From NCBI RefSeq assembly GCF_020921035.1, contig NC_063152.1, positions 35,260,494-35,324,493 of the forward strand: a DNA stretch of 64,000 nucleotides, read 5' to 3'. The translations under genes and the position numbers were made by a program. The notes below the pieces were generated by a model that was not told the DNA's origin, ran no database searches, and was given only the letters and a program-made list of their open reading frames with translations. This document shows, one piece after another, positions 4,143-57,142 of the stretch. How positions within the stretch are numbered: the first letter of the stretch is position 1; the number at the start of each line of letters is the position of its first letter. This DNA comes from Rhodamnia argentea. Taxonomy: Eukaryota; Streptophyta; Magnoliopsida; Myrtales; Myrtaceae.

Positions 4143-4188
4143 ATTTTAAAGATATGTGCCCAAAAAAAAAAACTATTTTAAAGATATG
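4143..4188 (+). repeat. Mini retroposition scar: oligo(A) insert in 14-bp repeats
   Basis: The 14-mer attttaaagatatg occurs at 4143-4156 and again, identical, at 4175-4188. Between them are only 18 bp: TGCCC, a run of 11 A, and CT. Direct repeats of this length around a 3' oligo(A) are the hallmark of target-primed reverse transcription. The insert is too short to name its source. Confidence 0.65.
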
Positions 4189-4209
4189 CATACGGGAAAA
4201 TTCAAAAAA

Positions 4210-5120
4210 GGAAAAAAGTGAACCTGCCGGCCGGCCCATGAGGGACCACCCAGGCCCTTCCTCTTCTTCTTTCGATTTTATTTCGGCCCATGAGCAGCCC
4301 CCATCCGGCCTGGCCCACTCCCCCTCCTTCCTCTTTCCACAGAGCTTGTGGCACCAGCCACAGCGGAGGACGTTCGAGCAGGATAGAGAGAGCGACCGAC
4401 CGGTTGAGTTATTCTTCGCAGCTCCAGCCGAGACTCGAACGGCCGCCTCTCACCCGCCCTCGACGGCGTCCAGACGACGGTCCTCCAGGTCTCGGCCGTT
4501 TCCGGTAGGTTTCGTTTTGTTTATCGCAGGGTGTTCTCGGTCCCGAGGATTCCAGCACGGGGACGCTGCGGAACGGATGGCCGCGACTCGAAGTCGTCTC
4601 TGGCTCGTTCCCGGTTGTCGTTCCCTGGCCGAATAGGGACTTCTTCACTCCACGCTTCCCGCACATCGCGTCCTCTTCGCGCTTGAGCCGAGAGTCTGGT
4701 TTTAGTTTTCTTCTTTGTTCGCATGCTTTCGTGTTACATGCTCGAACGGTTACTTGCCGCCGATGATTCGTTTGCAATATTTGCTTGAATCTATGAAAAA
4801 ATCGATCGTTTTCCTCTTTTTTTTACTGCCCACCAAATGCTCGAGGACATGTTTGAATGAGTTTGTTTCTGTTTTCAATGCGTTCTGTTCGTGGCCGTGA
4901 GACCGAGTTGATTGATGGTCGACGGAGCCGGTGACGGCTGATGAGCGCGGCACGGCGAGGATCGGGAGCGTCCGACGGTGACTGTGGTACCAGTATTAGA
5001 GGGGATGGCGCGCGTTGGGCTTGTTCCGGCAGTTGACGCCGGAGGCGGTGGCGGTGGCCTAGCGAAGCCAGAGTCAGGTCGGGTCGGCGGCCGTTTGGGT
5101 TTTTGGTTCAAGGGTTTTAG
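4210..5120 (+). promoter_or_regulatory. Orphan promoter / 5' exon-like GC block
   Basis: This block is far richer in C+G than its surroundings. It carries three GGCCCA motifs (near 4234, 4286 and 4312), the reverse of TGGGCC, the site II element common in promoters of plant housekeeping genes. It then has an exon-like stretch ending in a good donor (ccg|gtaggt at about 4504) followed by a T-rich intron-like sequence. No coding exon follows; the DNA becomes AT-rich repeat after 5280. It could be the 5' end of a decayed or truncated gene, a real non-coding first exon, or captured DNA. Confidence 0.3.
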
Positions 5121-5719
5121 TTTAGTTTAGTGTAATGGGCTTGGGTTTATGAGTTCTGGGCTTATGTGGTTCTGATTTGGAATAGATATTTGGGTCGAAA
5201 TAGGCATTATGTTTAATTTGACTTTGGGCTTCTTTGCGGACCTGACCCGGTTCGGGTCCGAGAACCCGACCGGTCCAATCTTATATAATTAATTAAATTA
5301 ATCAGATAATAATTAAAAAAATTCGTAAACAATTCGAAACAATTAAAATATTAAAAAATAAAAATTTGAAAAATTATAATAATAATAAAAATTTAAAAAA
5401 AATTGAAAATGATTTAGAAAAAGGCGGATTGGGATGATAAATCTTAGTGCTAGCTCATGGGATTATATCCCGGGAGTTCCCACATGGCCGTGTATATTCT
5501 TTGCCCGACTTGTATGGGGTTTTCATGTTTCGCAGTCATTTCGTTCCTTGGGTGTTTACTTATCGTACCGCTTTTCAATAAATTATTTTGTTAATTTATT
5601 GTTATAGATTAGATTAGGACTAGTTTAGATTATAAATGAAGATGAATTCATAAAAACATTTGCATGTCAACTTCGAAACGATTGTAGTACCTTTAGGCTT
5701 TAATTAATCAACTAATTAG
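5121..5719. other. AT-rich intergenic, nothing recognised
   Basis: The composition drops sharply to A/T-dominated sequence around 5280-5400, then to average. No gene or RNA is visible. Confidence 0.4.
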
Positions 5720-6345: not shown

Positions 6346-6726
6346 AAATACTCAAGTTTAAGATCCACTTGTATAAGAGTTAACAAACATGAAGTCATAT
6401 TTTGATCGAGTTAAACTAAAACTCTGGACTCGAACTCGAACCCTCATAGCCCCGAAATATAGAAGTAATGTTTACAAAAATATGTACTTAATTAAAGCAC
6501 AGAGAATTGCAATCATCTAAATAGGCTCGTGGATGTTTTTCCAAACTCAATCCCAATTCCAACTTTTGCGGAAGAATCGAGTTGAATTCGAGTAATTTTG
6601 CGAATCGAATTCGTAATTTTAAGTATCGTAATGGTTTTTGTTTTATTTAATGGAAGTGCAATCTTGGTACCGCGCAATGTGTAAATCTACCCCCGCGCTC
6701 TCAAGGTTTATTTTTTTTGGTACAGA

Positions 6727-9522
6727 ATGCTGAGAGCAACGAGAGGAATTTGGAAGCAACAGCCCCATTGCTTGTTCAACCTCCAGAGTCTCCTCGCTCT
6801 CTCTCCCCGCATGGCTGCTCCTCCTCCCGCTTCCCCTTCTAGGGTTTCTGCTTCTTCCTTCTCCGCTGGGCCGCCGCCGAAGCGCGTGGGCACCCACAAC
6901 GGCAGCTTCCACTGCGACGAGGCCCTCGGCTGCTTCATGATTCGCCTCACCAGCAAGTTCTCCGACGCCGAAATCGTCCGCACCAGAGACCCCCAGGTCT
7001 TTCCCCTCCTTCCTTTTGCTTCTACCCCTATTCGTCTTCTTGGACTTTTTCAGAGAAAAACAAAGATGCGAAATTGAAATAGAAAAAAAAAATGGTATCT
7101 TTAGTAGCTCAACGGGTGAAAGCAGCCATCTTTTGGCTATTGTTTTACGGGTTTATGCTAACACTTGGTTCCGAGTGTCTCTTGGCCAGAATGATTGTGT
7201 GTTGTTGTTCTTATGTGATGTGTCATTGAAATTAATTGAAGTGGAGAATGCAGGTGCTGGAGGGTCTTGATGCTGTACTTGATGTTGGGGGCGTGTACGA
7301 TCCGAGTAGAGACCGGTATGATCATCACCAGAAAGGTTTTGAGGAGGTATTTGGGCATGGGTTTTCCACCAAGCTCAGCAGTGCTGGTTTAGTTTACAAG
7401 GTACTAGTTGGACCTGAGTGGTTACCGCATTTTTTTTTGGTCGAATTACCGCGTTTTCATTAGGCTAGCTTTTGTTGTTTCAGTTTTTCGTTTTCGCATT
7501 GAGGGTGGTCTTGATTTTGTCGATTGTTAACATGGTTTGTTTCTTATACTTCCCATGTTCAGCATTTTGGGAAGGAGATAATAGCTAAGGAGCTTCAGGT
7601 CGATGAAAATCATCCGGATGTGCAACGGCTGTTTCTTGCTGTGTATAAGAGCTTCATGGAGGTACGTGTTTTTGCTTCTGACTTGTTTTTCTTTCCGTCT
7701 TTGGATGCTTACTGACTGAATCAAATAGCTGGCTTTTCCCTCTGATCATTAGCACAGAACTGTGTGGTTGGAATTTCACATGTGCTTTTGCTGGGGTATA
7801 ATCTCTGTTGGCAAACATAAATCAGTTTGGCTTTGGCCATTCATTTGTATTAGTGGCATCGATAGAAAGGCTGTGGAACTTTATCATGCTTTATTATGCG
7901 CAAGAGACATCTCTTTACTTAGCTCCAGAAAATAGTGTGGTTGAGTTGGGATTTGAATCGGGAATCGTAAATGTCATTGTCCCAGTTGTGAATCGTAAGA
8001 TTGTTTAAATAGTGGATGAATTGTTGGGTAAAAGTTATTTGACATTTAAGCTTGATAGTAATACATAACATCCTTATGTAGAGCCTGAGCACCACAACTC
8101 TTGCTTGCTTGTCCTTGCTATTTTCAGACATCTACTTATCTGCACCTTGCTCAGTCTGTTTCTTGGGGTTCTATTATCTTACTGATTCATAAATGCATGT
8201 TAAGACATTCTTTGCTGGTTGATGAGTTTGATCTTTTAAATTGATAATGGCAGGCAATTGATGCTATTGACAACGGAATAAATCGGTATGACACCGACCT
8301 GCCTCCAAGATATGTGAATAACACGCATTTGTCTTCAAGAGTCGGAAGACTGAATCTGGACTGGATTGATCCTGATCAATCTTCGAAGAAGGAGAATGAG
8401 GCATTTCAGCAGGCTATGTCCTTGGCTGGCAGCGAATTTTTAGATGTAAAGTTTTACTTCTTAATGGCGGTATAACTGTTATCAGTCGTTTTAACAACTC
8501 CTATGCTGATTCTCTTACCTTTTCGTTTGATTTTCAGAGTGTACGATTCCATACAAGGTCGTGGTTACCAGCAAGGTCCATTGTAATGGAGTGTCTTGCA
8601 GCCAGATATGGTATTGATTCAAGTGGAGAAATTATGGTTTTAAATCGATTTTGTCCCGTAAGTAACTGAATCTTTTATGATGTCGACTCGTGAACATGCT
8701 TGAGAATCGATTAATTGTTTTGATAGAACTGGATTTTGTATGCAAATGAGTTATATCATAAGTTATTAAGCTATACTTTCTTTTGTTTCTCATCTGATGA
8801 CTAATACTCCTTGATAGTTATCAGCCATGTACTTTTGTCTAATATGTTTGATTTGATCTATCTTTGTAGTGGAAGCTTCATTTGTTTGAGCTCGAGGAGG
8901 AGATGAAAATTGAACCTTCCATCAAATATGTGCTTTATCAGGTACCAAATTGAACCCTTTGGGCCATTTGATGACTTGCTGTGTAGACATAGATTTACAT
9001 GGAGAATTTTGTCTTGCTTTGTGGCTATAGCGAGTGTCCACTTTAGTTCATGGGTGAATGAATCACTTTAAGGGTGGTATACCACTTGCCAGTCGAGTCA
9101 AAGAAATCAAGGTCATAAGTGGATCAAAGCTAATATTCTGTGGATGCATCTCGTTAATGCAAATGCTCCTTGTTGCACCACGACCAAGAGCCGTTTTTCT
9201 TTTCTTTCCTTTTTGTTAAGCTTTGCTCTTAGTAGTAGAACGGAAATTGATAATGTGAGTACTTTTTGAACAAACAGTGATGTCTCTTCATGTGCAGGAT
9301 GACCGGAGCAAAAACTGGCGGGTGCAGGCAGTTGCAATGGCTCCTGACAGATTCGAAAGCCGGAAGGCTCTTCCAGCTCAGTGGCGTGGTCTGAGAGATG
9401 ACGAACTCTCCAAAGAGTCGGGCATCCCTGGCTGTGTATTCGTCCACATGAGTGGGTTCATTGGCGGGAATCATACTTATGAGGGCGCTCTTGCGATGGC
9501 CAGAGGCGGTTTAAAGCTCTAA
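6727..9522 (+). CDS. MYG1: MYG1 family exonuclease (UPF0160, DHH-like)
   Basis: Seven exons, all with GT..AG borders and all in phase 0: 6727-6996, 7254-7400, 7563-7661, 8254-8445, 8538-8657, 8870-8941 and 9298-9522, giving 374 residues, the usual family length. MYG1 proteins are metal-dependent 3'-5' exonucleases of mitochondria and nucleus in animals and yeast; the plant role is little known. Conserved motifs seen are [10 protein letters not shown] (57-66), DVGGVYD (100-106), DHHQ (113-116) and the C-terminal [18 protein letters not shown]. The basic, acid-poor N-terminus ([10 protein letters not shown]...) looks like a mitochondrial presequence. A second in-frame ATG at 6811 (Met29) would give a form without it. 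The first ATG was chosen because it opens the exon in frame with a plausible presequence. Confidence 0.93.
7422..7457 (-). repeat. Mini retroposition scar in MYG1 intron 2
   Basis: ttaccgcatttt (7422-7433) is repeated as ttaccgcgtttt (7446-7457). Between them lie a few T and GGTCGAA, which reads TTCGACC followed by oligo(A) on the minus strand. The exact edge is blurred by the T run. Confidence 0.5.
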
Positions 9523-10595: not shown

Positions 10596-13500
10596 CTAGC
10601 TCACTATGTCGACCTCCGTAGCTCCAGAAACTGCAGGTTCTGAAAACTGGGCGGAAGCAGACTTGGGTTCCGCCGCTGCAAACGGACTCCTCATTTGAGC
10701 AGCAGCAGCAGCCGAGTCTACTTCCATTGCTGAAGCCCTTGGAGGAGACGGCGGTTGCACCTCGACATCAGGGTAAGCCGCCTTAAATCTCGCCCGCAGC
10801 CCTTCTTCTACTAATCGCGCGCCGTTCAGCTGATTACCAAGAGACAACCACCTGAAAAACAGACAGAGAACATCAAAAGAGACCTCAAGGCAACGATGAT
10901 ATACATGACAAGGGAGCCCTTCACCTTGGAAGAGTGACAGTCCTAAGGTTCTGGGCAAAAAACATGCATTACCCACTTAATAATCACTCTGAAATTGTTT
11001 GTTCATCAAATATGCACAGTTGTCCAAAATGCCTAGACTCTTCCACCATTCATTGTCCATAAGAGGAATATGCAAGTTTCAATTTTCTTCAGCAGCTTAT
11101 TCTTAATTCCAAAAATTGAGGACAGTAAATTTAAAAACAATACCCTCCATGAGTGTTGTGCATGCGAGCAAACAACTCTAATTTTCTCGTCCTTGGACTA
11201 ATCCTCTCCAGCATTGGATACATCTGCAAAAACAGTGCTTTTGTTAGCTTACAACAGATAATCTGCATTCTTTAATATTTGAAAAACTCGAAAGATGTGG
11301 CTTCTGCAGTGCACGAGTTAGGTTGCACAGGCATCTTCAACACATTTTTTTAAGATCGTAAAAAGTGCTATCAGCAAACCCAGAAGACAGTACAAAAACA
11401 GATTTCATGCAGTTTGGATCAGTTCCAAGAATTAGTGTCCGTGTAATTCACTAACCTCATCTGGCTTACGGCTAGTCTCTCGAACCTCAGCGACAATGAC
11501 GTCAGTATCAATGTTCCTGTTTACTTCAGGATTCCCCTTAATACCAACAAGGCAATGCTCTTTGCTGTGATTGAGCCAATGGCCCGTGCGACCCGTTCTA
11601 ATGATCCGCTGAAGCTGATTGGTCTTCACCCAGATGATTTCCTCAACACGCTTGTACCCCCAAAGTTCCAAACTGTAACATGTGGATAGAATGATTATGC
11701 AAGAGCAAGATAAATGATAGACAGCACGATTCCATTCACAAATAGCATTGTGAGCTCTAACGTCAGGTCCCTTTAGAAATGACAAAGCATCACTTACTAG
11801 TATAGTTTTAGCGGAATTCAACAAATCTGAACAACTGGACAGCCACTACCTCATCTAGTAGTGACTTCCACACAAGCACCTATGCAAACTCCGTGGAGTT
11901 TATCACTATGTATCTAGCCTTTCTTTTCCCATGGTATCTAGCCTTTCTTTTCCCATGGAAAGACTTTATCAGTCAAATAACAAAGGCACATGCACTTACT
12001 TAATAAGTAAAATAAAAAACACAAATTCACTAAAAATGTTGTGAATCAAATCAGTCCATCCTTCAACCAAAAAAAAATAAAAAATCAGTCCATCCAAACA
12101 GACAAGCACATACCATTCACGTCCTAGCTCCATGGCACGTCCAGTGACCCACAGAAAAATCAGGCCATCAGTCTGCAATGCAGGAACATTGAGATTTCGC
12201 ATCTCATCATCCGCCATTGTCCCATAAGGCAATTCCATATGTATGTCCCATGGAGGATCTGCCATTATAACACCGAATTGCCCTATCACATCCATTCTAA
12301 AGTTCCGGATATCACAATTGATCCACTGTGCTTCACCAAGTTCTACTTCTGAGCAGTATTCTGCACGCAGTGGCTTCAATGGCTTGGGAGGTGCTGCTGC
12401 TGCCCCCATCATCATTGGTGGCGCATCTGGTGTTGGGTCAAGCTCGTAATGAACATATTTGCATGTCTATGGAAAAGAAAAAATCAATTAGATTAATTAA
12501 AGCTGCAACCAAGGATGCCCAAGGAACAAAGATAGAGATGAAAAAGACCTTCATGTGCCGGCAAGTATCAAGGAAAGAACAATCCCCTAAGTTGACGTCA
12601 GTATGTGGAGCAATTATTCGCCGAAAATGAACCTGGAAGAAGATTTTTTCTTAAGGTAAATACAGAATCTGAAAACAATGAAACAATGGTGAAGTAGTCA
12701 CAAGAGCACAGCATGGGGAAGAAAAAACAAAAGCTTGCGGAGGCTCAACGTCTCAGTTTACATGTCTTTATAACAGGAGAACAACACATTTCAAAACACC
12801 TAAAATTGCTAACTATAATTTGCAGATGTATTGGTCCGTTTCAACCTTTGTTCCTTCAAACAAGCCGTTTGAAGACATAGCTCTTAAGTTTGTTTTCTTT
12901 CTTCACATTTACCTTACGGGCACAACAAGTATATGATTACACCATCATTTTAGATGGTGCACAATACAAGCTTAAGTCAGAAAGGACAAAGACCCAAGTA
13001 CCCTAGAAACGACCACTGACATTACAAAGGCACAGATGTGATATGTATTCAATTTGTCCCAGTTTGATTGTGGAAGGCAAAGAGGGTGTCTTCGAATGAA
13101 GAATTTTGACTGAGGGATGAAAAGGCTGAGGGTATGTTTTAAGGAGAAAACCAACACTAATACTAATAGTCCCTAAATACATGCAAAATCAAAAAAGAGC
13201 ATATGAAGCAAACAGCAGTCTCTAAGCTGGTTAATAATGCAGAAAAATTTCGTAGAAGCAGCCATTCATAGGAAAGATATGTACACAGACAATAGCCCAG
13301 CAAGTAAAGGCTTGCAACTTGGAGCTGCATTCATTGTTGCTCTTGCACCACCATAGCAGCTAGTAGGGGTTTGGTACCTTCTAATAATTACTTAGAAGCT
13401 GTTTGCTTGTTTAAGACTTCCATTTTGGAATTACTACTGGCAAAAAGGGAAGTAAAAATATCTCAGTGTGAATGTGATGCTCTCCCAGATAAGAAACACT

Positions 13501-22856: not shown

Positions 22857-22895
<39 letters not shown>

Positions 22896-30331: not shown

Positions 30332-33300
30332 ACATGGCAAAGAAATCCAAGGTACAGTTGAATGCTCTCTCTACTTCAGGGTAAAGGATTACTACCATTT
30401 TCTATGCCTGAGAAGGGATTAAGATTCTGTTGATGCTGGGGTTTCTTCTTTTCCACATTGTTTAAATTGCTTCACGATTCATTGAATTCATTCTCACTGT
30501 CCCTTACCCGTTGAATGTTGGTCATGTTGAACATCCCACTTGACCTGTAAGACCTCACTGATATAGTCCATCCAGCACAATGCCTAACATGGGGTGTAAT
30601 GAACAAATACTTCACAATCCTTGTGATTGAATTGGAAAACTCGCTTTATTCTTTAGACGTTTGTTAGTTCTGAGGGATCATGTAAAAGTCGTTAGACTTG
30701 TTTGGTTTCCTGTTGTCTGTTTTCTTCGTATTTGTCGTCTAAATAGAGCTCTTGCTGCATCTGGGGTACTACTTTTGTTACTCTTTCTTAGGGAGTTCAA
30801 ATCACATGCTTGTCCTTAGAAGGCACTACATTGAGGTGGTTGCAGCCGTTCATGCATGTGATTAGTTGACTGGTGCTTTTAGCACGATCTTGCCTTTTTT
30901 GTCTCATGCATAATTTCCCCTCTAGCAAACCGTTAGAATTTGTCAATTGTGTCCTTGATGTATCAGCCATTATTCTTGTCTACCTGGAACGCACGAAAGG
31001 GACTTGTCAAGTTCCATATCTGAAGAAGCAAGTCATGGGGAAGTGAATAACACTCAGGACGACATCTTCTGTTCTATTGAAACCTAGTAAAAGCCAAATG
31101 TTCAGACGACTTCACAATAGCATAGTACTCAAAACGCCTAAATGCAAGTTCCCAGTTCGGCTTTGAGCTCGGGGAAGCCATAAATTTCTTGGCAACCTAG
31201 ACCCATGTCGTTCCGCAAAGAAATTTGGTAAGATGTCATGTTGTGTTACTAACTTTAGGGATTTAGAATTGAACATTTCATAGTTTAAATTGTCATTCTG
31301 ATGGATGAAATTTCCCAGAATTTTAGGGCTTTTTGTTCATCTCTGAACAATGATTAGACCGTGTTAATTTTTTTTTTTTTGTACTAACATAAACGAGAGA
31401 GAGGGAGAGAGATAAAATCGATGCATCAAACTTTAGAGCTTTCCTTCGATTCGATATTTCAATTGTTCGTGCGTGTATTCTTAGTTCAAAATTGAATTAA
31501 ACGATCTCAGTAAGGTTTCGAAGGTTAGATAGTAATCTCGCATTTTTCTTAATAAGCTAAGACACTTCTTTCAGCTCTTGCTCGTGCTTGCTTCAGAAAA
31601 CTTTAGAAATAGAAGAATCCCTTGTTATATCGTCGATGGAAGTTTTTTTTTTTTTCCTTTTTGGTTTTGGGGGGGGGGATGGTGTGTGGGTGTGTCAAAG
31701 TCCTCGATGGAGTTGGAGAGCCGAAGATAATGGTCCGTTCCAAAGCCAAGAGCCCAAGGGGCGGAATCCTCTTCGACACGAGCGTACGTTACAGCTAGAG
31801 AGTGCTACATGATATTCACCAAGACTTGAACATGACGCTGTTTGTCGTTCGTGCATGAAAGCTGCTTTTTGTTGCTAACGACGCCGTTTAGGCGAAGGTA
31901 GCCTTAGTCACGTGAACCAACCATGTAGTCGAGAGGCCCGAGTCTAGAAGCCGCTACATCAGTTGAACCCAACTGCAGCCGTGTATTATTATTATTATTA
32001 TTATTATTTTATTATTATTTTGAAAAAAAAAACAAGATGTTTTAAGACTTGATTAGATACTTGAGAAAGCTTTTGGACCACTCGTAAGAATTTTTGGACT
32101 TTCACGATGATTATTTCAATTTCATATTGAGTCGGATAGTTTTTTGTCCCATCTTTATACAACCGTAAAACCATTCACAAGATCATCAAGCTTCAATCTA
32201 TCTTTTGACTAATTCGGATGAACACTAACAAGAATCGCAAGCCCTAACCACAAGTATAATTGCTTGATTGTATTAAACTAAATTCCGTCTATGCAAATCA
32301 TTACATACATGTATATAAACTCAAAAATTACCTAAGGTCTTGTTTGGTTAACGGGAAACCAACATCTGGGAATGAAAATAATAGGAATTGGAATGAACAA
32401 TGAGGAATCGGAATGATAATCGATCTTCAAATCATCATCTCTTGGAATAAGAGTAATCTATTTATGTCCTGTTATTGCAGTTTTATTTTCCATAAGTAAG
32501 TATAAGCAAAAAATTAGAAATTCAAAATAAGCGATGCATCGTGATGCTAGGAACATATAATACTGTTGGCGAGAGCTCTGCGATAGACAGTCGTGTTTGC
32601 TGCTTCACATTCTTTCCTACATTTGATTGGACAGAGTTGACGAAAGAATTTTTCTGAACTGTTCCAAAAAAAAAAAAATAGAATATTAGGACCCCTGGGG
32701 TACTTTTACTTATGAAGTCAAACTATAACAGGGTGGAGCGGATCTTAGCAGTAATTATATTCCTTCCGGTGAAGCAGCCATAGCTAGCTGCATACGGTCA
32801 TGCGTTTTCTTGTTAGCCTCAATCTTCTCCCATAGCTTCCATCTCGAATCCTCCTACCGCAGCAAGTCGAATGAACTCCTTTGTTCCTATAGCTAGATAA
32901 AATCTCCGAGTTATCGCAGTCCCGCATCGATTGTCGACTAACTTCACGGATTTTAACCGAAAGTGATCGCTGCCGGACACTTCATCCTTCCATGGAAGTG
33001 ATGTGATTCTTTTGTTTTGTCTTCCTTTTTCTTTGGCCCCTCTCTTATTCTTATTCTGTCTTTCTTGCACAAGACCAGCTTTTTCTTAGCCCACTTTGCG
33101 TTATACTTCTTCTTTTCCCCCGCTGTAGATGGTCTGAACCTGATAAGAATTCCAGATCTCTTTGCTCCCCATTACCGAAGCTTTCATCACACCTGCCCAG
33201 ATTACATCTCCAAGTGGAAAGAACAGTGCGCACGGATCGCGCCGCTGTACCAAAAAGGGTGTGATTTGAACATAAATAGCTTCTGGGGTGGAAGCTGTAA

Positions 33301-36182: not shown

Positions 36183-36223
<41 letters not shown>

Positions 36224-45000: not shown

Positions 45001-45555
45001 ATTACCAGAAAAAGAGAACTATAAAAACTCAATAATGGAGGAGTTCCAGAACGTAACATTAAAGCTAGAGCTACAGCACACAACACAGGATCTAATGCTC
45101 TTATCTTCATTTTCATGGAGAAGTGTTCAGTAATCAACATGTCCATTTCCAGAGTCTTGAGACCCAACGACAAATGCGACAGTTAAAACAAGGCCTGCCC
45201 AGTGTCATAACTCATCGTCTCTTTCCATCCTCAGCTTCTTCATAGCACTGACACAGACTGTCAAACGAACAGTTGGATTCCGCCACTTCTGGCAAGGGAC
45301 AATAGGACGAACCCAGAACATGGAAGAATATAATCAATAATCAAGTCGGCTCCTCTTCAAGATTGCTGTATTATTATCATCTTGTGGCTACAGATGGTTG
45401 GTTACCCCCATGATACACGCTTGTAGTGATGTAAAACAAATGCCATCAAGGACATTTTGAGACCAAAGTATGTATAAAGGCAGCTTCAGGTAAAGCCAGC
45501 TGAATCTAGTTTAGTAGTGGTAACAGAGCCAATATACACTGGCGGAGCAGTTGGT

Positions 45556-47824
45556 TCACTCTTCTAACACAGGGGAAAGCAAGGGCTTATCTGAAAAGAA
45601 AGCTTCCAAGTTCCCGACAACAAGATCGCATAAATCCGATAAGGATTCTGCAGTAAAAACAGCTGTATGTGGAGATAATACGACATTATCAAGAGCAAGG
45701 AGCTCTTCAGGAACATTGGGCTCATTCTCAAACACATCTAAGCCGGCACCTCCAAGCTCTCCCTGGACTAGAAGTTGCACCATGTCCTTTTCATCGATAA
45801 TTGATCCACGCCCAATGTTAACTATCACACCTCCCTTCCCCAAAGCTAATAGTACTTCCCTATTGATCATGTGGTGGGTTTGCTCATTCAGGCCACAACA
45901 GATTACAAGGACATCACAGTTAGTGGCGAGCTCGCGTACATCAGAGTAGAAGGGGTACAAAACTGGCTTCTTTTTCCTTGAGTTATACAAAACGGCACAT
46001 CCAAAGGCCTCAAGCCTTTTAGCAACTTCTAGGCCAATCCTTCCCAATCCAACAACTCCGGCTCTCTTGCCACCTAGCTGCAAGTGAAATTGCCACCACA
46101 GGCATAGAAGATACAATTTACATTTCATGTATAACTGAGACAATAAGATCGAGTTGTATAAAATGGAAGGAAGGAGTTCTCCCTGAATTATGAAAATAAA
46201 AGACGACTTTCTATTCTACATCTACACCTCATTAGTAACAGAAAATCACACAATAATGAGTTAAGCCAACCAGTTCAGAGGACCTTATGTTATGCCACAT
46301 CTGTTATTGACCCTAAATGGAATGTCTAAGTGTACTTCACAGTCAAATCCATCAGTATTGACATTCTCAAGACAAGACAAAACGTTCATAATTTCAATTT
46401 CCTTGCTATCTAATACCGTATGCCAGGGCCATAAAACATGGAGTCAACCATATTAAAGCATTTGCACCATTGAATTTATTAAGCCAAACCAGGAGATGCT
46501 CAAGACCGGTAACTCTGATGAGCAACATATCAGACCAAACTCCCCATCAAAGAAAAATCTTGTGGCCACATCATCTTTCCTAAACGAAGAATTCACCTAT
46601 TATATTTACTGTTGGTAAACCAAAATTTAAAAAATTTAGGAAGTTGAATGTGTTAGAGTTGAACGAAGGAAAATAACATAATCCAATCTTTCCAAAGATC
46701 ACCCATTAATAGAGAGGTCATTTTGGCAGTCATGACAAAAAATCTTTTTATGCATCTAGACACAGTCTACCTTAAATTACTAGTGTTAGGCCCTACAAGA
46801 TTTCAGAGGTCCTGAGGTCCATGATAAATAGAAGATAAAACCTTCGTATGCATCATAGCATGGCCAACCCAAAGAGCTAAAGGTCTCTACTTAGGGGCTG
46901 GCTCATTGACTCAGTATAAACATCCTCCACCATTTTTTTTTTTGGCTGAAAACATACTCCACCTGATCAGCCAATTAATAGTACAATAATCTGTAAAACA
47001 CTTCTACCTCAATAACAAGTAGAAACTATGCTGTCCTATTCAGCTATTCTTTCTCCAGAATTAGACCAATACAGAGCACATCGCAGCTCAATTCATAATC
47101 ATCAATCTCTCCACAGTCTAGAGACCAAAGCTTTAACAAAATGTAACAGCGCACATAATCATCAGTGGCAAAACTCAGTTGTCAAATTATCGGTCACTAA
47201 AATGCGGACTCTTGCACGTTCCATTAAAGCTCGCATTCACTTAATTCTCCTCTCACGATTGCTAAACGCTCATCCAAACAACTATTAATGCCAAAAAGTC
47301 GTCACAGACAGGTAAATAGATTGAGCAAGCACTGATACCTTCGAACCGTGTGCGAAATCTCCCTCACTACTCCACAATCCCTGCCTGACGTACCGGTCGC
47401 CCGCCGAGACCTTCCTCAGCACGTCGATGAGCAGTCCGACGGCCAAATCCGCCACTTCCTCGGAGTACACGTCCCCGGCGCTGGCGATCGCGATCCCCCG
47501 CCTCCGGCACTCGGCGAGGTCGATGTGGTTGAGGCCCGCGCTGGTGGTGACGACGAGGCGGACCTCCGGGAGCCGCCGGAGCATGTCGGCGGTGACCGGA
47601 GCCCCGCCGGAGGTGAGGATGGCCTCGGCGGAGCGGGCGTCGGCGGAGGAGAGGAAGTCGTGGAGGGGGAGCGACGATTCCCAGGGCTTGAGGAAGTGGA
47701 AGTTGTCGGGGAGGGGGCGGTTGAGGAGGGTGAAGTGGGGAGGGTGTCGGAGGAGGAGGACGCGCGGCGGGGGGCGGCGGTGGAGGGGCGGAGGAGCGCC
47801 GTCGTGGTGGGGGTGGGAGGCCAT
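45556..47824 (-). CDS. D-2-hydroxyacid dehydrogenase (HPR3/HPPR-like), copy A
   Basis: NAD(P)H-dependent reductase of 2-oxoacids such as hydroxypyruvate, glyoxylate or hydroxyphenylpyruvate; Arabidopsis relatives are the HPR2/HPR3/HPPR group. Two exons: 47824-47339 (162 codons) and 46077-45556, giving 335 residues, with a phase-0 intron of 1261 bp. Exon 1 encodes most of the substrate-binding lobe ([32 protein letters not shown]). Exon 2 begins at the Rossmann GxGxxG (VGLGRIG) and holds the catalytic triad Arg252 (NIGRGS), Glu281 (FENEP) and His299 (SPHT). All are intact, and no peroxisomal signal is seen. It is the most diverged unit of the array, lacking the MITE and gypsy relic of B and C. 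Substrate preference cannot be told from sequence. Confidence 0.92.
46918..46963 (-). repeat. Mini retroposition scar in copy A intron, empty in B and C
   Basis: aaacatcctccacc (46918-46931) is repeated as aaacatactccacc (46950-46963) around an 18-bp insert that reads TCAGCC plus 11 A and T on the minus strand. Paralogous introns have the single uninterrupted aaacatcctccacc (B at 52644, C at 58620), so the insertion polarity is certain. Confidence 0.9.
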
Positions 47825-49844
47825 GGGAAGTCAAAGAAATGAGGGATTTGAGAGGCGTGTCCCGGTCGAATAGAGAGAGAGACGGGGAGGAATTTTGTTG
47901 CCGATGCTAGTGAGAGGGACTGAGAGGAATCAGGTGCCACAACACAATATGTATGGCGGCCCGCCATGAACTCGCGTGGATTATTCTTGTCGGTTCGAAT
48001 CACCGTTCATACACTTCTACGGTCATAAAGTTTTACTTTGATGTCAAATTGATGAAAATGTACAGCATCCTTTCGATTTTTAAGTTAGATTGAATCAAGT
48101 TTGCCCGTTTGATAAATTTGCATCTTACTTGCCGTTCCAAAAATAATTTATTTATGACGTAAATACGGAGCTCTCCCTTTTTTATACTAAAAGTCGGTAA
48201 AAATGTGTGAAATTCCCGATTGTCTCAAGTAAAATCGTGTCGGATCAAAATTTATCCATCCGTAGGTTGTCATGACATTCAATTCATTCTCATTTTATTT
48301 TAAGTATGGTGGTCTTTAAATCCAGTTTAAGCAAGACTGGTTTATTATGTTGGAATACTAATTAGGGGGTTAAGGCCAAGGGCGCCCAACGGCCGGGTTG
48401 TCCGGTCCTGAGATGGATGGTGCGGCCAATAAATGGGTGGTGTTCGTTTCTTGTATTAGGGCCATATTTAATTATTTATATATAAATATATACATTGAAA
48501 AATTGAAACAAAGATTAAGTTTTTTCGCCTCCCAGACTTTTGTTATTTTATTTTTTGGTATTTTTTTGTTTTTGGTGTTGTTTTATCATGTATGGCTTAT
48601 TTGGTATTGATTTGAAATTTTGATCAAGTTCAATCATAAAAGTCATATAGTTTATTATGTCGGCATACTAATCGACTTTGAACGAGCATAATTCGACATT
48701 TAAATAACTCTCAATTAAAAAAATACAAAGGAAGCCATCAAATCACTAAACAGTCAAACGTGGAGAAGCGCACCTTCCTCTTTGACTCTCGAGTCCAATT
48801 CAATCAGATTAGGCAAAGAGAAGTAGTACCTGTTCTTTCCTATCATAGGACACTGAAAATGCTACCTGGACTTTTAGTTTTAGTACATGGGGGCAGCTTG
48901 AGGTTGTCGGATGATCGGTCCAAATCGAACTTCCATGCTGAGCTCCTTTGTTGTGTAACATGGTTGATTAGTGTGGTGGTTCGCGATTGTTGCAGTACCA
49001 AGCATGTTTGTAACATAACATCCGATCGGATTCTTCTCTAATCAATTATCTGGTGATAAGGAAGATTAACAAAAAATGGACAAGAGAGACTAGATAAGTT
49101 GGGCTTCTCCGGTTGCGCAACTTTACTCGACAGATAAATCGTACGAAGAAATGTTGCAATTTGGCTTCATTAGGTTTCTCATCTATATCGTTGAAGATGT
49201 GTTTGATGAAAAGAGAGAGTGAACGGTGATAAAGAAAATCGCGATGAAACTGAAAAAAAAAAAAACAAAAGGATGAAAAGGTTAAGGGAACAAAACGATG
49301 TTACTGAAAGCCTAAGGGTGGGTTTTTTTCGTCAAAAATGCGGTTAACGAGTGCCTTTTGAGATATTGATTAATGATAATTTCGTTTCCAGACATAACTC
49401 TGAGAAAGACGTGCATCGAAAAGGATGGGACTTCCGGCATCGTTGATCAATTGACACTTGACAGGATTCCATTCCGATTTCCGTTACCTAATCTGGTTGT
49501 GCGTGGTGGAGGATTTATCGAACTAGTCACCTAACCTTTCATTAGCTCGATTAAAGTGATTCAAAAGTCCAAAGCATTTGAGACCCTGTTCAACCACCAG
49601 CATGTACGATGTTACAAAACTAAGAGGCACTCACGCCCAAGAACATCATCGAGGTGGAAAAGGGAAAGTCGGGTCGATTTGGATCGATTCTCGGCGAGGC
49701 GCCGACCGCCTTTCGATGTTTACCCGCGGCGCTCGCGACCCCCGCACCCATCCTTTTGCTTTCCCTGCTTTTTCACAATTAGGTCCCCCTCCTCCCCAAT
49801 TGACTCTTCCGTTCTCTCTCACAGGCTGACGATCCTCAAAAGAA
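47825..49844. other. Copy A upstream region
   Basis: Contains the 5' flank of copy A, AT-rich DNA, and from about 48,660 blocks homologous to the far 3' flanks of copies C and D (for example gaacgagcataattcgacat near 48,681). A short GC-rich block (49655-49830) of unknown origin abuts the relict gene end. No gene seen. Confidence 0.45.
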
Positions 49845-50310
49845 AACGTGATGGTAAAGAAGTTCCAGAACATCAAGATTAGAGCTAGAGCTACAAATAC
49901 AAAACACAGGATCTACTGATACCATCTTCATTTTCGTGGAGAAGTGTTCAGTAGTCAACATGTCCCCATTCTAAAGTCTTGCACCCAATGACATGCGTGA
50001 CAGTTGAAACAAGGCTTACCCCACCCGATGACATTGTGGAAAGGATTAACAAATACAACAGGAAGAAACCATCACAGGGAAGAATATAATCAGTAGCTAG
50101 GAGGCCGCGGATAGTGGGTTAGACGCACCAAACACGGATTGCAGTGATAGTGATGCAAAATGGATGCCATCAAGGCACCCCATATTGAGTCGGAAGACTG
50201 CTTCAGGTAAAGCCAGCTGAATCTAGTTGAGGAGTGGTAACAGAGCCAATGTAGACCGGTGGAGCAGTCAGGTTCACTCATCTAACACAGGAGAAAGCAA
50301 GAGCTCATTT
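49845..50310 (-). pseudogene. Relict 3' end of a reductase gene
   Basis: Matches the 3' flank of the array genes (gagaagtgttcagtagtcaa, cttcaggtaaagccagctga) and then the last coding bases. On the minus strand, 50310-50274 encodes [11 protein letters not shown] and a stop, as in copy D. Homology ends abruptly at 50310; all the rest of the gene is missing. It is a leftover of a lost unit between A and B. Confidence 0.85.
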
Positions 50311-50619
50311 ACTGGCTAGGATCCTCCGGTGAGCCACATAGGTACCACGTATGATTTTCGATGAAGGTCATCGGAATTGACACTGAAATAACCATTTTTC
50401 AAAAAAATTGATACTTAAGTGATTCAGAAAAAAAAATATATTAACATTAAAGTGAGCGCCGTATATAAATATTGACACTCCATGTGCCCTTTTGCTCTCG
50501 AATTAGCCTCCATCAAGAAGGCACCGACCATTGCAACTACAAGAAAAGCAGATGCCCCACTTCGTACGACTCTGCTAATCCTCAAAAAATGCATTTTCAA
50601 TAAAACAAAGGTTGGTTTG

Positions 50620-50680
50620 GACCAACATCTAGAGTTTTTTTTTTTTTTTTTTTTGGGGGGTCAAAGACCAGCATCTAGAG
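50620..50680 (-). repeat. Mini retroposition scar, 20-T run
   Basis: gaccaacatctagag (50620-50634) is repeated as gaccagcatctagag (50666-50680). Between them are 20 T, GGGGGG and TCAAA, which reads TTTGACCCCCC followed by 20 A on the minus strand. Confidence 0.75.
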
Positions 50681-51230
50681 TTCATTTCCTCTCAAAGTGC
50701 AAGCTTTTCAGAGCACATTTGCCACCAACGAGAACGCAATGATAAAGAAGTTTCAGGACATTAACATTAGAGAGCTTGAGAGCTACAGTACCCGACACAG
50801 GATCTCATGATAATTTCTTTATTTTCATGGAAACGTGTTCAGAAATCAACATGTCCCCACTCTGGAGGCTGTTAAAGCAAGGCCTACCCGGCATTTCAAT
50901 TCACCATCACTTCCCCTCCTCGGCTTCTTTGTAGCACCCGACAGACTTTCGAGCAATCAGTTGGCTTTCGCTGATTGTGGAAAGGATTGAACAAATTCAG
51001 CAGGGCGAAACCATCGAGTGTTGGCTCCTTTTTTAGATGGCCGTATTATTGCAATCCCATGGCCAAAGAGAGCTGGTTAGCTGCACCAAACACTGCTTGG
51101 AGTGATGCAAAACAGATGCCATCAGGGCAAACTTATTGGGGCCCTAGTATGTAGAAAGACTGCTTCAGGTAAAGCCAACTGAATCTAGTTTAGTAGTGGT
51201 AACAGAGCCAATACCAGTGGAGCAGTCAGT

Positions 51231-53507
51231 TCACTCATATAACACGGGGGAAAGCAAGGGCTTATTCGAAAAGAAAGCTTCCAAGTTCCCGACGACGAGA
51301 TCGCATAAATCTGATAAGGTTTCCGGGGTATAAACAGCTGTATGCGGCGATAACACGACACTGTCAAGAGCAAGGAGCTCTTCAGGAACACTGGGCTCAT
51401 TCTCAAACACATCTAAGCCAGCGCCTCCAAGCTCTCCCTGGACTAGAAGTTGCACCATTTCCTTTTCATCGATAATTGATCCATGCCCAATGTTAACAAT
51501 CACACCTTCCTTCCCCAAAGCTAATAACACTTCCCTGTTGATCATGTGGTGGGTTTGCTCAGTCAGGCCGCAACAGATTACTAGGGCATCGCAGTTAGTG
51601 GCGAGCTCATAGACATTGGAATAGAAAGCATACGAAACGTGTAGCTTTTTCTTCCTTGACTGATATGAAATGGCACATCCAAAGGCTTCAAGCCTTTTAG
51701 CAACCTCTAGGCCAATCCTCCCCATGCCAACAATTCCGACTCTCTTGCTGCCCAGCTGCAAGTGAAATTACCACCACAAGCAGAGAATATATGAGTTACA
51801 CTTCATGTATAAGAGAAAAATAAGATCAAGTCACATGTAACTTCTCACTGAATCAAGGAAATAAACGATGGCATACTATTCTACATCTACACCTCACCAG
51901 TAACAGAAAACCACACAAGCATGAGTTGAGTCAACCAGTTCAGAGGGCCTAATGTTATGCTGCATCTGTTACTCGCCCTAAATGGATTGCCCAAGTGTCT
52001 TCAAAGTCAAATCCATCAGCATAAAATGTGTCAAGGGAGGATAAATTATTCATAATTTCAATTGCTTTCCAATGAAATACTTTATCCCATGGCTGAAAAA
52101 CATGGAGCAACCCATATGGCAATTTGACAACAAAATCAATAATTGCACCATTGAATTTCCTAAGCCAAGCCAGGGGATGCACAAGGGCATATGAATCTGT
52201 CGGACAACATATCAGACCGAACTCCCCATCAAAGCTGAATCTTAGGAACTAAACATCTACCTTAAATGGAAGATCTAATCTATCACATTCACTGTCATAA
52301 TCAGACCCATGAACACTAGATAAATAAAATGTTATAAAAACCTTTAGGAAGTTGAACGCGTTACACTTGAACAGAGGGAAATAACTAAATCCAGTCTTTC
52401 AAAAGATCATCTATTAATAGAGAGGTTTTTTTCGCCCATCATGACAAAAAAAGCTTTTTATGCATCTAGACACAGTCTTTATACCTTAAATTACTAGCGT
52501 TCACCCCCCATGAGAAGTCTAAGGTCCATAATAACTAGAAGATAGACTCTCTGTTCTGATCATAGCTTTTTCTCATCAAACAATCATGATTGGCCAGCCC
52601 AAAGAGCTAGAGGTCTGGACTTAGGGGATTGTTCCCTCGGTATAAACATCCTCCACCTGATCATAAGTGCGGCAGTCTACTTCTATCTCAAGAAACAAGT
52701 AAAAACTATGCTGTCCTATTAAACTATTCTTTCTCCAGGAGTCTCCATTCACAGCACATCGCGCCGTTTGTCAAATGATAGAGTTTACCTGAAATACTCA
52801 TCATTCTCCCTACAGTCTAAAGTCCAAAGCTTTAACATAATGTAATGGCGCACATAATCATCAATGGCGAAACTCAGGTCTCAAATTGTCGATTACTTAC
52901 TAAAATGCTGACTCTTGCACATTCAATTAAAGCTCACTTTCACTTAATTCTCCTTATCCAGAAAATTATTGACGTCGAAAATCCTCACAGACAGATAAAT
53001 AGAGCAAGCGAGCATTAAAACCTTCGATCCGAGTGCAAATTCACCCTCACTACCCCAAAATCCACGCCTCAAGTACCGGTCGCTCGCCGAGAGCTTCCTC
53101 AGCACGTCGATCAGCAGTCCGACCGCCAAATCCGCCACGGCGTCCGTGTACGCGTCCCCCGAGCAGGCGATCGCGATCCCCCGCCTCCGGCACTCGGCCA
53201 GGTCGATGTGGTTGAGGCCCGCGCTGGTGGTGACGACGAGGCGGGCCTCTGGGAGCCGCCGGAGCATGTCGGCGTTGATCGGGTCTCTGCCGGAGGTGTA
53301 GATCGCCTCGGCGGCGCGGGCGTCGGGGGAGGAGAGGAAGTCGTCGAAGGAGAGCGGCGATTCCCATGGCTTGAGGAAGTGGAAGTTGTCGGGGAGGGGA
53401 CGGTTGAGGAGGGAGAAGTGGTGGGGGTTACGGAGGAGGAGGACGCGCGGTAGAGAACGGCGGTGGAGGGGCGGAGGAGCGCCGTCGTTTTTGGGTTGAG
53501 AGGCCAT
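51231..53507 (-). CDS. D-2-hydroxyacid dehydrogenase, copy B (catalytic Arg lost)
   Basis: Same two-exon structure: 53507-53022 and 51755-51231, 336 residues, with intact frames and splice sites and a 1266-bp intron. The start at 53507 (MASQPKND) aligns with A and C; an in-frame ATG 23 codons upstream (53576) is not conserved. The NAD-binding GMGRIG, Glu282 (FENEP) and His300 (SPHT) are present. The invariant Arg of the N-x-x-R-G motif is His253 (NIGHGS), by a CGT to CAT change. In this family that Arg binds the substrate carboxyl/keto group (Arg240 in E. coli SerA), so the protein probably cannot reduce 2-oxoacids normally. Other changes (GRDPIN for GGAPVT in exon 1) suggest relaxed constraint or a changed role. 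Confidence 0.88.
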
Positions 53508-53858
53508 GGGAAAGTCAAAGTAGGGATTGAGAGGAGTGTCCGGTCGAAGGTAGAGAAAGAGATTTTGTATTGCCATAGCTCGGGAAAGGTGATGGAGACT
53601 CCGAGGAATTTGGCGCCATTACATTATGGGGGCCCACTGCCTTGAGTTCATCTGCTATAATAAAAATATATAAATTCATCTCGATTTTTTAAGTAAATTT
53701 ATAGTTGGGAAGTTCACACATTAGATGAATTTCGTGTCATGTTTCGTCACAGTTGTTCGTGTCATATCATATCAAGCATAAATTATTCTCCATGCTAATA
53801 ATGCAAAGGTCTCTTTTTTTCTCAAAAAGTAGATAAGAATGTGCGTGTTTCTTATGCG

Positions 53859-54184
53859 GTAAAATAACACAAATGGTCCATGAACTTTGACCGAATATAT
53901 AATGCTGATCCCTGAATTTTTAATTTGACAAATATGAGCTCTGAACTTTTAGAATATGTTCAACTTAGTCATTGAATTACATGAAGATATTCAAGATAGT
54001 TCATTGAACAAATAATTCTTTGGAATCAAGAAAATATTCGTCAAACCACATTGGTCAAATTAAAAATTTATGGATCATATTATACATTGTGTTAAAGTTC
54101 ATGAACCATATTGATCAAATTAAAAGTTCATGGACTACATTACACATTAGATCACAATTCAAAAACTATTTGTGTCATTATCCC
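53859..54184. repeat. Foldback MITE, family 1 (copy 2), 5' of reductase B
   Basis: The left end aaaataacacaaatggtccat is mirrored by the right end actatttgtgtcattatccc. The arms match those at 535-955 and 59771-60181. It lies about 350 bp upstream of copy B's start codon, the position that copy 3 holds before gene C. Confidence 0.75.
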
Positions 54185-54245
54185 TTCTTACACCTTTGGA
54201 TTTGGTATTGTCTGTTTTGATCGGTATCATCTCAAGAATGCTCTC

Positions 54246-55749
54246 ACTTAAGCACGCTTAACATTAGATTCTAATGCTAAGCGTTGTTACGCTACGTCAA
54301 AAATCGCATCTTGTGAGTTATTTTCAATTTCAAATAGTCTTCTTCTCTTTTCAAGATTCATTCCCTACTAATTAAATTTCACCCAAGTAGCAAAGAAGGT
54401 AGGCTATGCTCTACAAGCTACACTCTATCCTCTTCCCAAAGAGCATTTATCCTTTGATTTGAAAGACGGGCGTTAAAAGGGGGGTTAAAAGGGGAGAAAA
54501 CCCATTTTTTTGCTTCTTCTATTGAGAAACCAAAGGCCCTCCTGTCATTGTTTTAGTGATTCGTATAGCTAAATCTTAGGACATTTTCCCCAACTCAATG
54601 CACAATTCAATCTGTTCCATCCCATTCACCATCCTAGGAACCGCTCCATTTCCGGGCTCTCTTGCCCTGGATATTACTCCCAGCTCTTGTCGGATCGAGT
54701 TGTTGCAAGCCCTCTAGCTTCCACATGGTTCGTGCTTGAATCGCACACCTACTAGAGGTTTCTCATTATGATATTCTTTTGGTTCAAAATGTATTAGCTA
54801 ATATGGTGCCCATAATAATTAATCTCTCTATCATGAGGAAAAGATGGTAAATCCTTAGGAAATAAATCTAAAAACTCTCTAAAACACAAACATTTTCCAG
54901 CTTTATGATATAATTTTTTGTGTCTTTTACACAAGGCAAATTATCACAACAACTCTTTTTCAATAGTTCCTCGATCGCAAAGCTGAGATTATTCTTGGAA
55001 AAGCACTTTTACAATTTTTCAAAATAGAGAATTTCGTTAATTTGAAAGTCGAAAGAGAACTCACTTTGAATAGCAAACAGAGGTAGCATGAGGTAGGGAT
55101 AACAAATTCAATCCTAAGATAACATCAAAATCTTATACATTCACCTCTATTATATCTTTGGGCAATGCTATATTGTCAATATGTAGCAAACATTTCTTGA
55201 ACACAAGATCCGAAAATAAAGAAATCATTGGATGCAAAATGAAACATACACCTTAGTGCCAAACAAAATATGTCGCATAAATTATCACACAACCCCATAA
55301 CATCCCATAAAGTCTAAAAAAAAAAAAAAAATAGCCTAAGCCCCGATATCATATTGTGACACTCTTGGATTAACTCACTCAAGATATTGTGTGATTTGAC
55401 ATGTCCCATACCGAATCTTACAATTTTATCCTTTGATCCATATTGAATCTTACGGTTTTGTCCTTTGATGTATAGATAGGCACTTTCCTAGGATTTAACT
55501 GACCCTGTTAGTGCTTTCAACTGAGCACACTTGACATGTCAAGCATTGTTGTCGTTATGTCAAAATACACCTCTTGTACGTTATTTCCAGTTTCACATAT
55601 AGAATCAATAAATTCTCCCCATATTTATTGCATAATTCATTTCATTCATTCCCCATTTGTTATCTTAGAAGCCTCTCGGGACCCGCTCCTTGTCCAAGCC
55701 CTCTTGCCTCGACAATTGCTTCTTGCCCTCGTTGGACCGGGTTGTTACA
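54246..55749 (-). mobile_element. Ty3/gypsy LTR element relic between B and C
   Basis: Lies on the minus strand. A 395-bp LTR (55355-55749; ends TGTAAC...GTCACA in that orientation) is followed by a primer-site-like atatgatatcggggctta, resembling the initiator tRNA-Met site. The second LTR copy (about 54246-54707) is incomplete. The short internal region has a faint protease-like stretch near 55,050-55,165. It is old and clearly broken at many points. The same element sits at 60240-61808, so it inserted before the tandem duplication. Confidence 0.65.
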
Positions 55750-57142
55750 CTACTATTCTCAAATAATCGTGTAGTGTCAGTTTAGAATTTCCCCTCAATA
55801 AATTTTTGTCTTGTTGAACCCACATTATCATGTCACTTACAAACATTGTTACCTTCAAAGCTAGGTTCAAACAAGACTACTTTCCAACATTCGCTTGCCA
55901 ATGTATTTTCAATGAGCACAATTCAATATTTGACAACATGCGTCGCGCTCAACTCTCATTTAAAAAGAAATCATCTAATCACTAAATATTCGATCGTTAC
56001 GAAATTAGTTTTGCCCGTACCTCTCGAGTACGTTGTAATCAGATTTGGCAAAGAGTCAAAAAGAAAACATTAAAATCTTGGTGGGCTTGAGATTTGAATC
56101 AGTTGGACCCGAGCCGATTGACTAAATTCAACTGTGATTGAACGTACGAACTTAGTAGGGACCAAGAGCAATGATGTGTCTGGTCCATGCATGCTAGTTG
56201 GTCCAAATGCTACGTGGACTTGGTACATGGGAATATTGACGTCGTCCGATCGATGTTACTTTGCCATGTCTTCGTTACTCAGTTTTGTATATGGTGATCA
56301 GGATCGTCGGTCATGACTCCGGCAATACCAAAACGCATTTGTACTGTATATTCAGTAGGCTTCTTTTCAATTAACTGTGTGCTAACAACAAATATCAAGA
56401 TCAACAAAACGGGAAAAGACAGACGTGATAGGATGGGTTTCTCTCGACTGCGCAACTGACTTAACCCTTAAAATGCACGATGAAATTTTATGATTTCACC
56501 TTCATTAGGCTTCTCGCCTTGAAGTTTTAGGATGCGTCGAAGAAGTAAGCCAAGAAAAATAAAATTGAGAAGAAAGAAAAAAAAAAGAGCAATGGATTAG
56601 AATTTCGCGCATATTTTGTTTATAGACATAAGGGAATAATAACAATGTGCCTGTTTTACTTTACCAAAAAAGAAAAAGAAAAAAACAATGCGTCTGTTTT
56701 TGTTAAGGTATCTGATTAACGAATACCTCCGTGGAACTGGCTAATTATTACTCGATACGGCCTCCTACTATCATTTTCATGGAGAAGTGTTCAGTAATCG
56801 ACATGTCCCCATTCCGGAGACTTGCACCCAAGGACGAATGTAACCGTTAAAGCAAGGCCTTACCCGGCATTTCGATTCATCATCTCTTTCCTTCCTCGGC
56901 TTCCTTCGTAGCACCTGACAGACTATCGAGCAATCAGTTGGCTTTCGCCGATTGTTGAAAGGATTGAACAGATACAACAGGATGAAACCATCGCGTGTTG
57001 GCTCCTTTTCGAGATGATCTTATTATTGCAATCCCGTGGCCACAGAGAGCTGGCTTAGCTGCACCAAACACTGCTTGCAGTGATGCAAAACAGATGCCAT
57101 CAAGGCAAACATATTGAGACCACAGTATGGTGAAAGACTGCT
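55750..57142. other. Copy C downstream flank
   Basis: Homologous to the flanks beyond copies A and D (catttaaaaagaaatcatct, ttaggcttctcgcc) and then the 3' UTR region of copy C (from about 56,770). No separate gene seen. Confidence 0.5.
56641..56700 (+). repeat. Mini retroposition scar, empty in copy D flank
   Basis: aacaatgtgcctgtttt (56641-56657) is repeated as aacaatgcgtctgtttt (56684-56700) around a 26-bp insert, ACTTTACC plus an A-rich tail. The paralogous site near 62,686 has a single aacaacgtgtccgtttt without insert. Confidence 0.8.

Follow-up and report, generated by a model that had tools for sequence, protein, structure and literature searches.

Where do inserts of a few nucleotides come from, when each ends in CC and an oligo(A) run and lies between the two copies of a short direct repeat? 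The question is raised by a 64,000-nt stretch of the Rhodamnia argentea genome (contig NC_063152.1, positions 35,260,494 to 35,324,493, forward strand), here called the window, in which an earlier note had marked seven such places and ascribed them to one machinery making extreme 5'-truncated copies. We conclude with considerable confidence that inserts of this class arise by target-primed reverse transcription of L1-type long interspersed nuclear elements (LINEs) that in most cases stops after copying about 7 nt of the element, a judgement that covers origin and early end jointly. Enrichment over controls, non-random 3' ends, real target-site duplications (TSDs) and empty sites all support a LINE-type machinery making extreme 5'-truncated copies, and this part of the earlier note holds. 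Its picture of truncation at various short lengths is to be corrected: the lengths cluster near 7 nt.

Inserts and empty sites in the window

All seven places were read as sequence and scanned for an insert body, an A tail and a TSD (Table 1). Six are clean insertions, each with a body of 5-11 nt, oligo(A) and a TSD of 12-20 bp with 0-3 mismatches, and to these six the proposed common plan applies. The seventh, at 31644, is an outlier with a 45-nt body and an 11 bp TSD (score 8.5); its body has CTTTGACACACC first and is C-rich after that, and we count this messier and looser fit as a possible relative. At 4157, AA is common to the TSD and the tail, and the body at 46932 extends to TTTTCAGCC if the TSD end is assigned to the insert. 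A long C run precedes the tail at 50635. Such C runs between body and A tail, of varied length, occur at 50655-50665 and 31656-31700 in the window and at loci L022, L133, L144, L148 and L149 elsewhere, and look as if the CC end had grown.

Direct evidence of insertion comes from paralogous sequence. Since the window holds several copies of 2-hydroxyacid dehydrogenase-like genes (five frames scanned), paralogous flanks are available for comparison, and the paralogs of 46932 (two) and 56658 (one) carry a single copy of the target and no insert. For the remaining five window sites a full paralog was not found in the sequence examined. Among 85 sites compared within the sequence sampled for analysis, two further loci have an empty counterpart (L107 against L108, L206 against L111), which brings the total to two of the seven window inserts and two other loci; insertion is thereby shown. 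The genes themselves stand in tandem at window 45000-63800 and belong to the D-isomer 2-hydroxyacid dehydrogenase-like type, with PF02826 or PF00389 in all five frames scanned and further similar frames besides.

The association of CC with short-body TSDs is already visible within the window. A TSD of score at least 9 with a body of at most 12 nt accompanies 6 of the 18 CC-preceded runs of A6 or more (5 of 18 at score at least 11), against 4 of the 139 other such A runs (2 of 139 at score at least 11; Fisher p = 1.6e-4 at score 9). Re-pairing the flanks gave a mean of 0 short-body TSD sites over 200 shuffles, and none occurred in 30 second-order Markov-shuffled windows, against the 6 observed. 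The other 12 of the 18 CC-A runs have no short-body TSD, and CC-A alone is thus not diagnostic.

Table 1. Inserts of the window and their empty paralogous sites
Feature	Coordinates	Strand	Parts	Body (nt)	TSD (bp)
Micro-insertion 4157	4139..4188	+	TSD 4139-4156, body TGCCC 4157-4161, A11 from 4162, TSD 4171-4188	5	18, 1 mismatch
Micro-insertion 7434	7422..7457	-	TSD 7446-7457, body TTCGACC 7439-7445, A9 tail, TSD 7422-7433	7	12, 1 mismatch
Micro-insertion 12062	12048..12095	+	TSD 12048-12061, body TTCAACC 12062-12068, interrupted A tail from 12069, TSD 12082-12095	7	14, perfect
Looser relative 31644	31630..31711	-	TSD 31701-31711, body 31656-31700, A13 tail, TSD 31630-31640	45	11, 1 mismatch
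Micro-insertion 46932	46918..46963	-	TSD 46950-46963, body TCAGCC 46944-46949, A11 tail, TSD 46918-46931	6	14, 1 mismatch
Micro-insertion 50635	50620..50682	-	TSD 50666-50682, body TTTGACCCCCC 50655-50665, A20 tail 50635-50654, TSD 50620-50636	11	17, 1 mismatch
Micro-insertion 56658	56638..56700	+	TSD 56638-56657, body ACTTTACC 56658-56665, interrupted A tail from 56666, TSD 56681-56700	8	20, 3 mismatches
Empty site, paralog of 46932	52641..52664		single target copy, insert absent		
Second empty site, paralog of 46932	58617..58640		single target copy, insert absent		
Empty site, paralog of 56658	62683..62710		single target copy, insert absent		

LINE ends and micro-insertions across the genome

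The genome searched, a single one, comprises 346,658,060 bases (346.7 Mb) in 74 contigs. TTCRACC followed by A7 occurs 1973 times, against 88 times for the reversed pattern. With A10, the counts are 1101 for TTCGACC (8 reversed), 1001 for CCTTACC (3 reversed), 509 for TCCGACC (6 reversed) and 448 for TTGGACC (7 reversed). Two of the four 7-mers were also permuted with ACC kept, and these controls are rare (TCTCACC-A10, 20; TGGTACC-A10, 4). Relative to reversed patterns the four LINE-end 7-mers are therefore in excess by factors of 22 to 334, and for the two that were permuted the excess over that control is 50- and 112-fold, so that the enrichment expected by the earlier note is borne out. CC-A12 as a whole occurs 15,403 times, against 3,916 for its control. 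Three of the four 7-mers (CCTTACC, TTGGACC and TCCGACC) were read off LINE ends and then searched as predictions.

These counts bear on an origin without retroposition, by simple-repeat growth, by tandem duplication with filler DNA at break repair, or by chance direct repeats. Short direct repeats with filler do occur at repaired breaks, and both 31644 and the window CC-A runs without a clean micro TSD would suit such an origin. Filler, however, would not give four LINE-end 7-mers hundreds of times with oligo(A) always on the same side; in addition, the controls are near zero and the empty sites show insertion. We regard this origin as very improbable, and for the class as a whole as refuted, although single old sites such as 31644 could have arisen in this way.

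Thirty loci carrying the plant LINE domain zf-RVT were read for the sequence before the A tail; 150 of 907 candidates were scored, and the 150 LINE matches listed lie on 11 contigs. Exactly one of the four 7-mers ends 11 of the 30 loci (CCTTACC five, TCCGACC three, TTGGACC two, TTCGACC one), and two more loci do so with one extra C (one CCTTACC, one TTCGACC). Other ends met were TCTGACC, TCCGAC, TTGACC and ATGACCC, and some loci have no clear tail. The four 7-mers thus precede the A tails of zf-RVT LINE copies in the same genome, and several LINE 3'-end types take part in place of the single common 3' end that had been suggested. For the window bodies the correspondence is partial: TTCGACC at 7434 reproduces exactly the 3' end of LINE locus L048, and TTCAACC at 12062 is one base off and would be the expected product of CpG decay of TTCGACC. 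Five LINE frames were scanned for domains, with zf-RVT found in five, RVT_1 in four and RVT_3 (RNase H-like) in four; the L1-clade label rests on these domains, the A tail and established knowledge. On contig C6, the segment at 0.15-0.89 Mb holds 23 places with the longer pattern TACTTACCTTACC-A10, all on the minus strand, together with many minus-strand zf-RVT matches, and we read it as a same-orientation LINE cluster; 42 of the first 100 matches listed for this pattern lie on C6, in a listing that stops short of C7.

The same comparison speaks to the idea that each 7-mer-A(n) is a minute non-autonomous element of its own, a micro-SINE (short interspersed nuclear element) whose tiny RNA is copied by LINE proteins. 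Bodies are uniform within a class, as this idea would have it, but each of the four classes has its exact match in the terminal 7 nt of some of the 30 LINE copies read, the two permuted 7-mers are rare, and a 7-nt body is too small for a promoter; we consider the idea highly unlikely. An origin from the CCA 3' end of transfer RNA (tRNA) was dropped, the bodies matching LINE ends. Rfam and ARAGORN each find one tRNA in the window, the same one by both, at 3012-3096 on the minus strand (Rfam 48.7 bits; anticodon ambiguous, cata, by ARAGORN), and this gene is perhaps intron-bearing.

Individual sites were examined in a sample of 113, taken from the head of the listings on one contig (C1) and so not random over the genome. 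It consists of 34 distinct TTCRACC sites (the first 8 of the A7 listing and the first 30 of the TTCGACC-A10 listing, 4 of these 38 loci being common to both and dropped as duplicates), the first 20 CCTTACC, the first 40 TTGGACC (39 distinct, L180 duplicating L179) and the first 20 TCCGACC. When a site is called a micro-insertion if its body does not exceed 12 nt and its TSD scores 8 or higher, 83 of the 113 qualify (TTCRACC 23, CCTTACC 16, TTGGACC 33, TCCGACC 11), and among the sampled sites with these four LINE 3'-end types an early exit is more common than any other outcome. In a null test on 94 of the sites, 68 pass at score 8 or more and 59 at score 10 or more; re-paired flanks pass in 0.4-2.1% at score 8. 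Among the 68, the TSD has a median length of 16 bp (5-95% range 11-19) and the A tail a median of A13, the tail being present by selection because the patterns demanded A7 or A10. Multiplying the A10 counts of TTCGACC, CCTTACC, TTGGACC and TCCGACC by the fractions 23/34, 16/20, 33/39 and 11/20, respectively, gives by rough extrapolation about 2,200 micro-insertions when only the A10 sites of the four 7-mers are counted, the TTCGACC fraction coming from a sample that also takes in TTCAACC and A7 sites.

The TSD is perfect at 41 of the 68 micro sites. By class, the perfect share is 16 of 18 for TTGGACC, 13 of 16 for CCTTACC, 9 of 23 for TTCRACC and 3 of 11 for TCCGACC, and because it differs in this way the classes probably differ in age, with the habit persisting. 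Ordinary longer LINE insertions whose inner part was deleted later would have sources at hand, since LINE copies with the same 3' ends exist; however, every such deletion would need its end point precisely at the edge of the TSD, and the many perfect TSDs speak against that. Of all the explanations weighed here we give this one the least credence. Two loci in the sampled sequence have a more complex structure. At L113 (about 120-320) several A-tailed short inserts are nested or repeated in one array, and at L006 (about 1128-1140) an insert with poly(T) on one side and CCTTACC-A8 on the opposite side sits inside a single direct repeat of 15-16 bp, resembling a minute inverted (twin-priming) product.

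An end point near 7 nt and its possible causes

In each of the four 3'-end classes the body measures about 7 nt. The templated length is exactly 7 in 35 of the 83 micro-insertions and is a range that includes 7 in another 34, a range being given where the TSD end repeats the next LINE base. Bodies vary less (standard deviation 1.2) than tails (2.7), and the two are uncorrelated (Spearman 0.11, p 0.36, n=68), although the tails were chosen for length and may have changed since insertion. The lack of correlation suggests an end point set by position on the RNA rather than by total complementary DNA (cDNA) length, and a constant total cDNA length was accordingly dropped as an explanation.

Three side tests probed shorter bodies. 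With CC-A12 alone, 48 sites are listed in the first Mb of C1 (C1:21512 to C1:999113); 7 had already been examined, and of the other 41 sites 10 are micro-insertions, with bodies of 4-9 nt. The fuller count is 14 of 48, L005, L069, L089 and L109 among the seven also being micro. Of 100 GGACC-A10 sites listed, 76 carry the full TTGGACC, 5 only TGGACC and 19 neither; the base at -8 is mixed (T 28, A 26, C 12, G 10). Of 100 TTACC-A10 sites listed, 44 carry CCTTACC, 9 only CTTACC and 16 CTTTACC. Among 20 sites with an incomplete 7-mer (8 of the 10 listed on C1 for GGACC, 12 of the 16 up to C1:4383343 for TTACC, with four left out as already examined and L197 repeating L129), 4 have a micro TSD, 2 of them with bodies under 7; the left-out CTTTACC sites L015 and L135 are also micro. 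Shorter bodies appear rare in these tests, and longer ones appear to be a minority: TACTTACCTTACC-A10, with a body of at least 13 nt, occurs 147 times, against 1001 CCTTACC-A10 sites.

Several results weigh against a LINE-derived class that mostly ends near 7 nt, or limit it. The window bodies TGCCC, TCAGCC and CTTTACC matched none of the 30 LINE loci. Thirty of the 113 sampled sites have no recognised short-body TSD, including 9 of the 20 TCCGACC sites, and templated length is 8 or more in 14 of the 83 micro-insertions. In the CCTTACC class a templated A stands at -8 in 25 of the 44 listed sites, which puts the end at 7-8 and not strictly at 7. The 7-mer searches are blind to bodies under 7 except through the three side tests, and the 147 longer copies are a lower bound, the pattern being exact. 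Among 256 untargeted runs of A8 or more, with CC not required, 37 have a TSD of score at least 9 (7.8 expected) and 19 one of score at least 12 (0.8 expected), but their bodies range from 0 to 69 nt, some rows being low-complexity, so not every A-run TSD belongs to this class. The TSD begins with A in 60 of 68 cases and has A as its second base in 55 of 68, a preference partly inflated where the TSD match may run into the A tail.

TSDs that mostly start with AA fit L1-type nicking and priming on A, and together with the LINE domains they make a LINE origin by target-primed reverse transcription well supported; the reason for an end near 7 nt we infer. In the proposed sequence of events, the LINE endonuclease would nick where the duplicated strand begins AA, and the oligo(A) tail of the LINE RNA would be primed at the nick. 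The reverse transcriptase (RT) would then copy the A tail, go on for about 7 nt into the 3' end of the element itself and stop. Joining of the stub to the staggered upstream cut would leave the last 7 nt of the LINE and A(n) between the copies of a TSD of mostly 11-19 bp. Synthesis may end there by meeting a barrier fixed relative to the body/A junction, if the RNA is held just upstream, either by the RT-RNA particle or by a bound factor.

The main contender is a template that is already short, the LINE RNA bound by the RT at the body/A junction being degraded or cleaved up to the leading edge of the enzyme about 7 nt ahead, so that the RT runs off. The stretch of template that an RT covers ahead of its active site is about 7 nt. 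An end point set by the body/A junction and uncorrelated with tail length would follow from such shortening; the mixed base at -8 in the TTGGACC class is what a footprint edge would give, and the 1-2 extra non-templated nt at the 5' junction of 13 of the 83 sites are of the kind that run-off RTs add. Those bases may equally stem from stalled ends or from repair. Shortened RNA is a serious candidate that we nevertheless judge the less probable course, and a block on the RNA just upstream is preferred over trimmed RNA.

A feature of the RNA itself was sought in single-sequence folds and in alignments of LINE ends, and none common to the ends that would explain the stop was found there, a further point on the negative side. 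A hairpin road-block was provisionally set aside, no shared stem ending at -8 being present in these folds and alignments. Weak stems are predicted for L041, L043 and L057, ending there 6 nt before the tail. Seven aligned TTACC-type ends have a long hairpin further upstream and a weak outer stem ending 10-14 nt before the tail, and 11 aligned GACC-type ends (L039, L042-L048, L055, L058 and L065) have a GATGCCC-N7-GGGC-like hairpin 43-52 nt before it; neither alignment has covariation support (terms 0.29 and -0.29). The RNase H domain was likewise dropped as a cause: RVT_3 is absent from the CCTTACC-type frame scanned, yet that class has a similar length, and LINE types with and without RVT_3 both give 7-nt scars.

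On the boldest reading, plant L1 reverse transcription may have a built-in early checkpoint, at which synthesis usually stops after the tail and about 7 nt, yet the stub is carried through to a clean insertion. In this plant, and perhaps in many flowering plants, the majority of mutations caused by LINEs would then be unannotated scars of about 20 bp plus a TSD. We offer this tentatively, as a proposal rather nearer to even than to improbable but short of what we would expect to hold.

Comparison with known systems

The comparisons below draw on passages of the papers cited. These already describe LINE copies truncated at the 5' end, target-primed events that aborted, and a human insertion consisting of poly(T) only (PMC3747384, PMC2848041, PMC3219598, PMC12016303, PMC4859970, PMC6895275). 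A description of fixed-length micro LINE insertions was not found in the open-licence literature searched, by titles and abstract openings. The same holds for a fixed 7-nt product that outnumbers longer copies. The process is known; its dominant quantised product, seen here in one genome, we found undescribed. As to why LINE reverse transcription ends early, passages of a review hold poor processivity to be an unlikely cause, because non-LTR (non-long terminal repeat) RTs are highly processive in vitro, and report speculation on conflict with host factors (PMC4859970). A fixed end point in several LINE 3'-end classes gives a precise and countable read-out of this early step. With a 7-nt body beyond the reach of similarity searches, LINE activity in such genomes would be undercounted, and thousands of small indels with TSDs and A runs would be retroposition events usable as insertion markers.

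Human L1 insertions share target-primed reverse transcription and 5' truncation with the sites described here, but the medians given in a long-read study are 1240 bp for germline polymorphisms and 394 bp for somatic insertions (PMC12016303), against a body of about 7 nt. A poly(T)-only insertion in human NF1 likewise is retroposition with almost no element body, for which the authors allow a severely truncated Alu or L1, or a processed pseudogene (PMC3219598); as presented there, it is one disease case, whereas here the class is recurrent and of fixed length. Tailless retropseudogenes are also retroposons from truncated RNA, probably guided by the L1 RT (PMC3747384); those described in that review lack poly(A) and derive from truncated tRNA or tRNA-related SINE RNA, whereas our sites are A-tailed, having been chosen so. 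The Sadhu elements of Arabidopsis are LINE-mobilised and non-coding, with poly(A) and a TSD of 7-16 bp, and their authors read 5'-truncated copies as abortive retrotransposition (PMC2848041); unlike the inserts here, they are described with internal sequence of their own and a full length of about 900 bp. SINEs differ in having an RNA-derived body of their own with an RNA polymerase III promoter, unlike the 83 sites with bodies of at most 12 nt. The closest likeness is to insertions of plant L1-clade LINEs, in poly(A), TSD length, A at the TSD start, 3' end sequence, and RVT_1 with zf-RVT in the sources; but truncated members of LINE families are put at 100 to 1,000 bp in the review cited above (PMC3747384), and here a body of about 7 nt is the main product.

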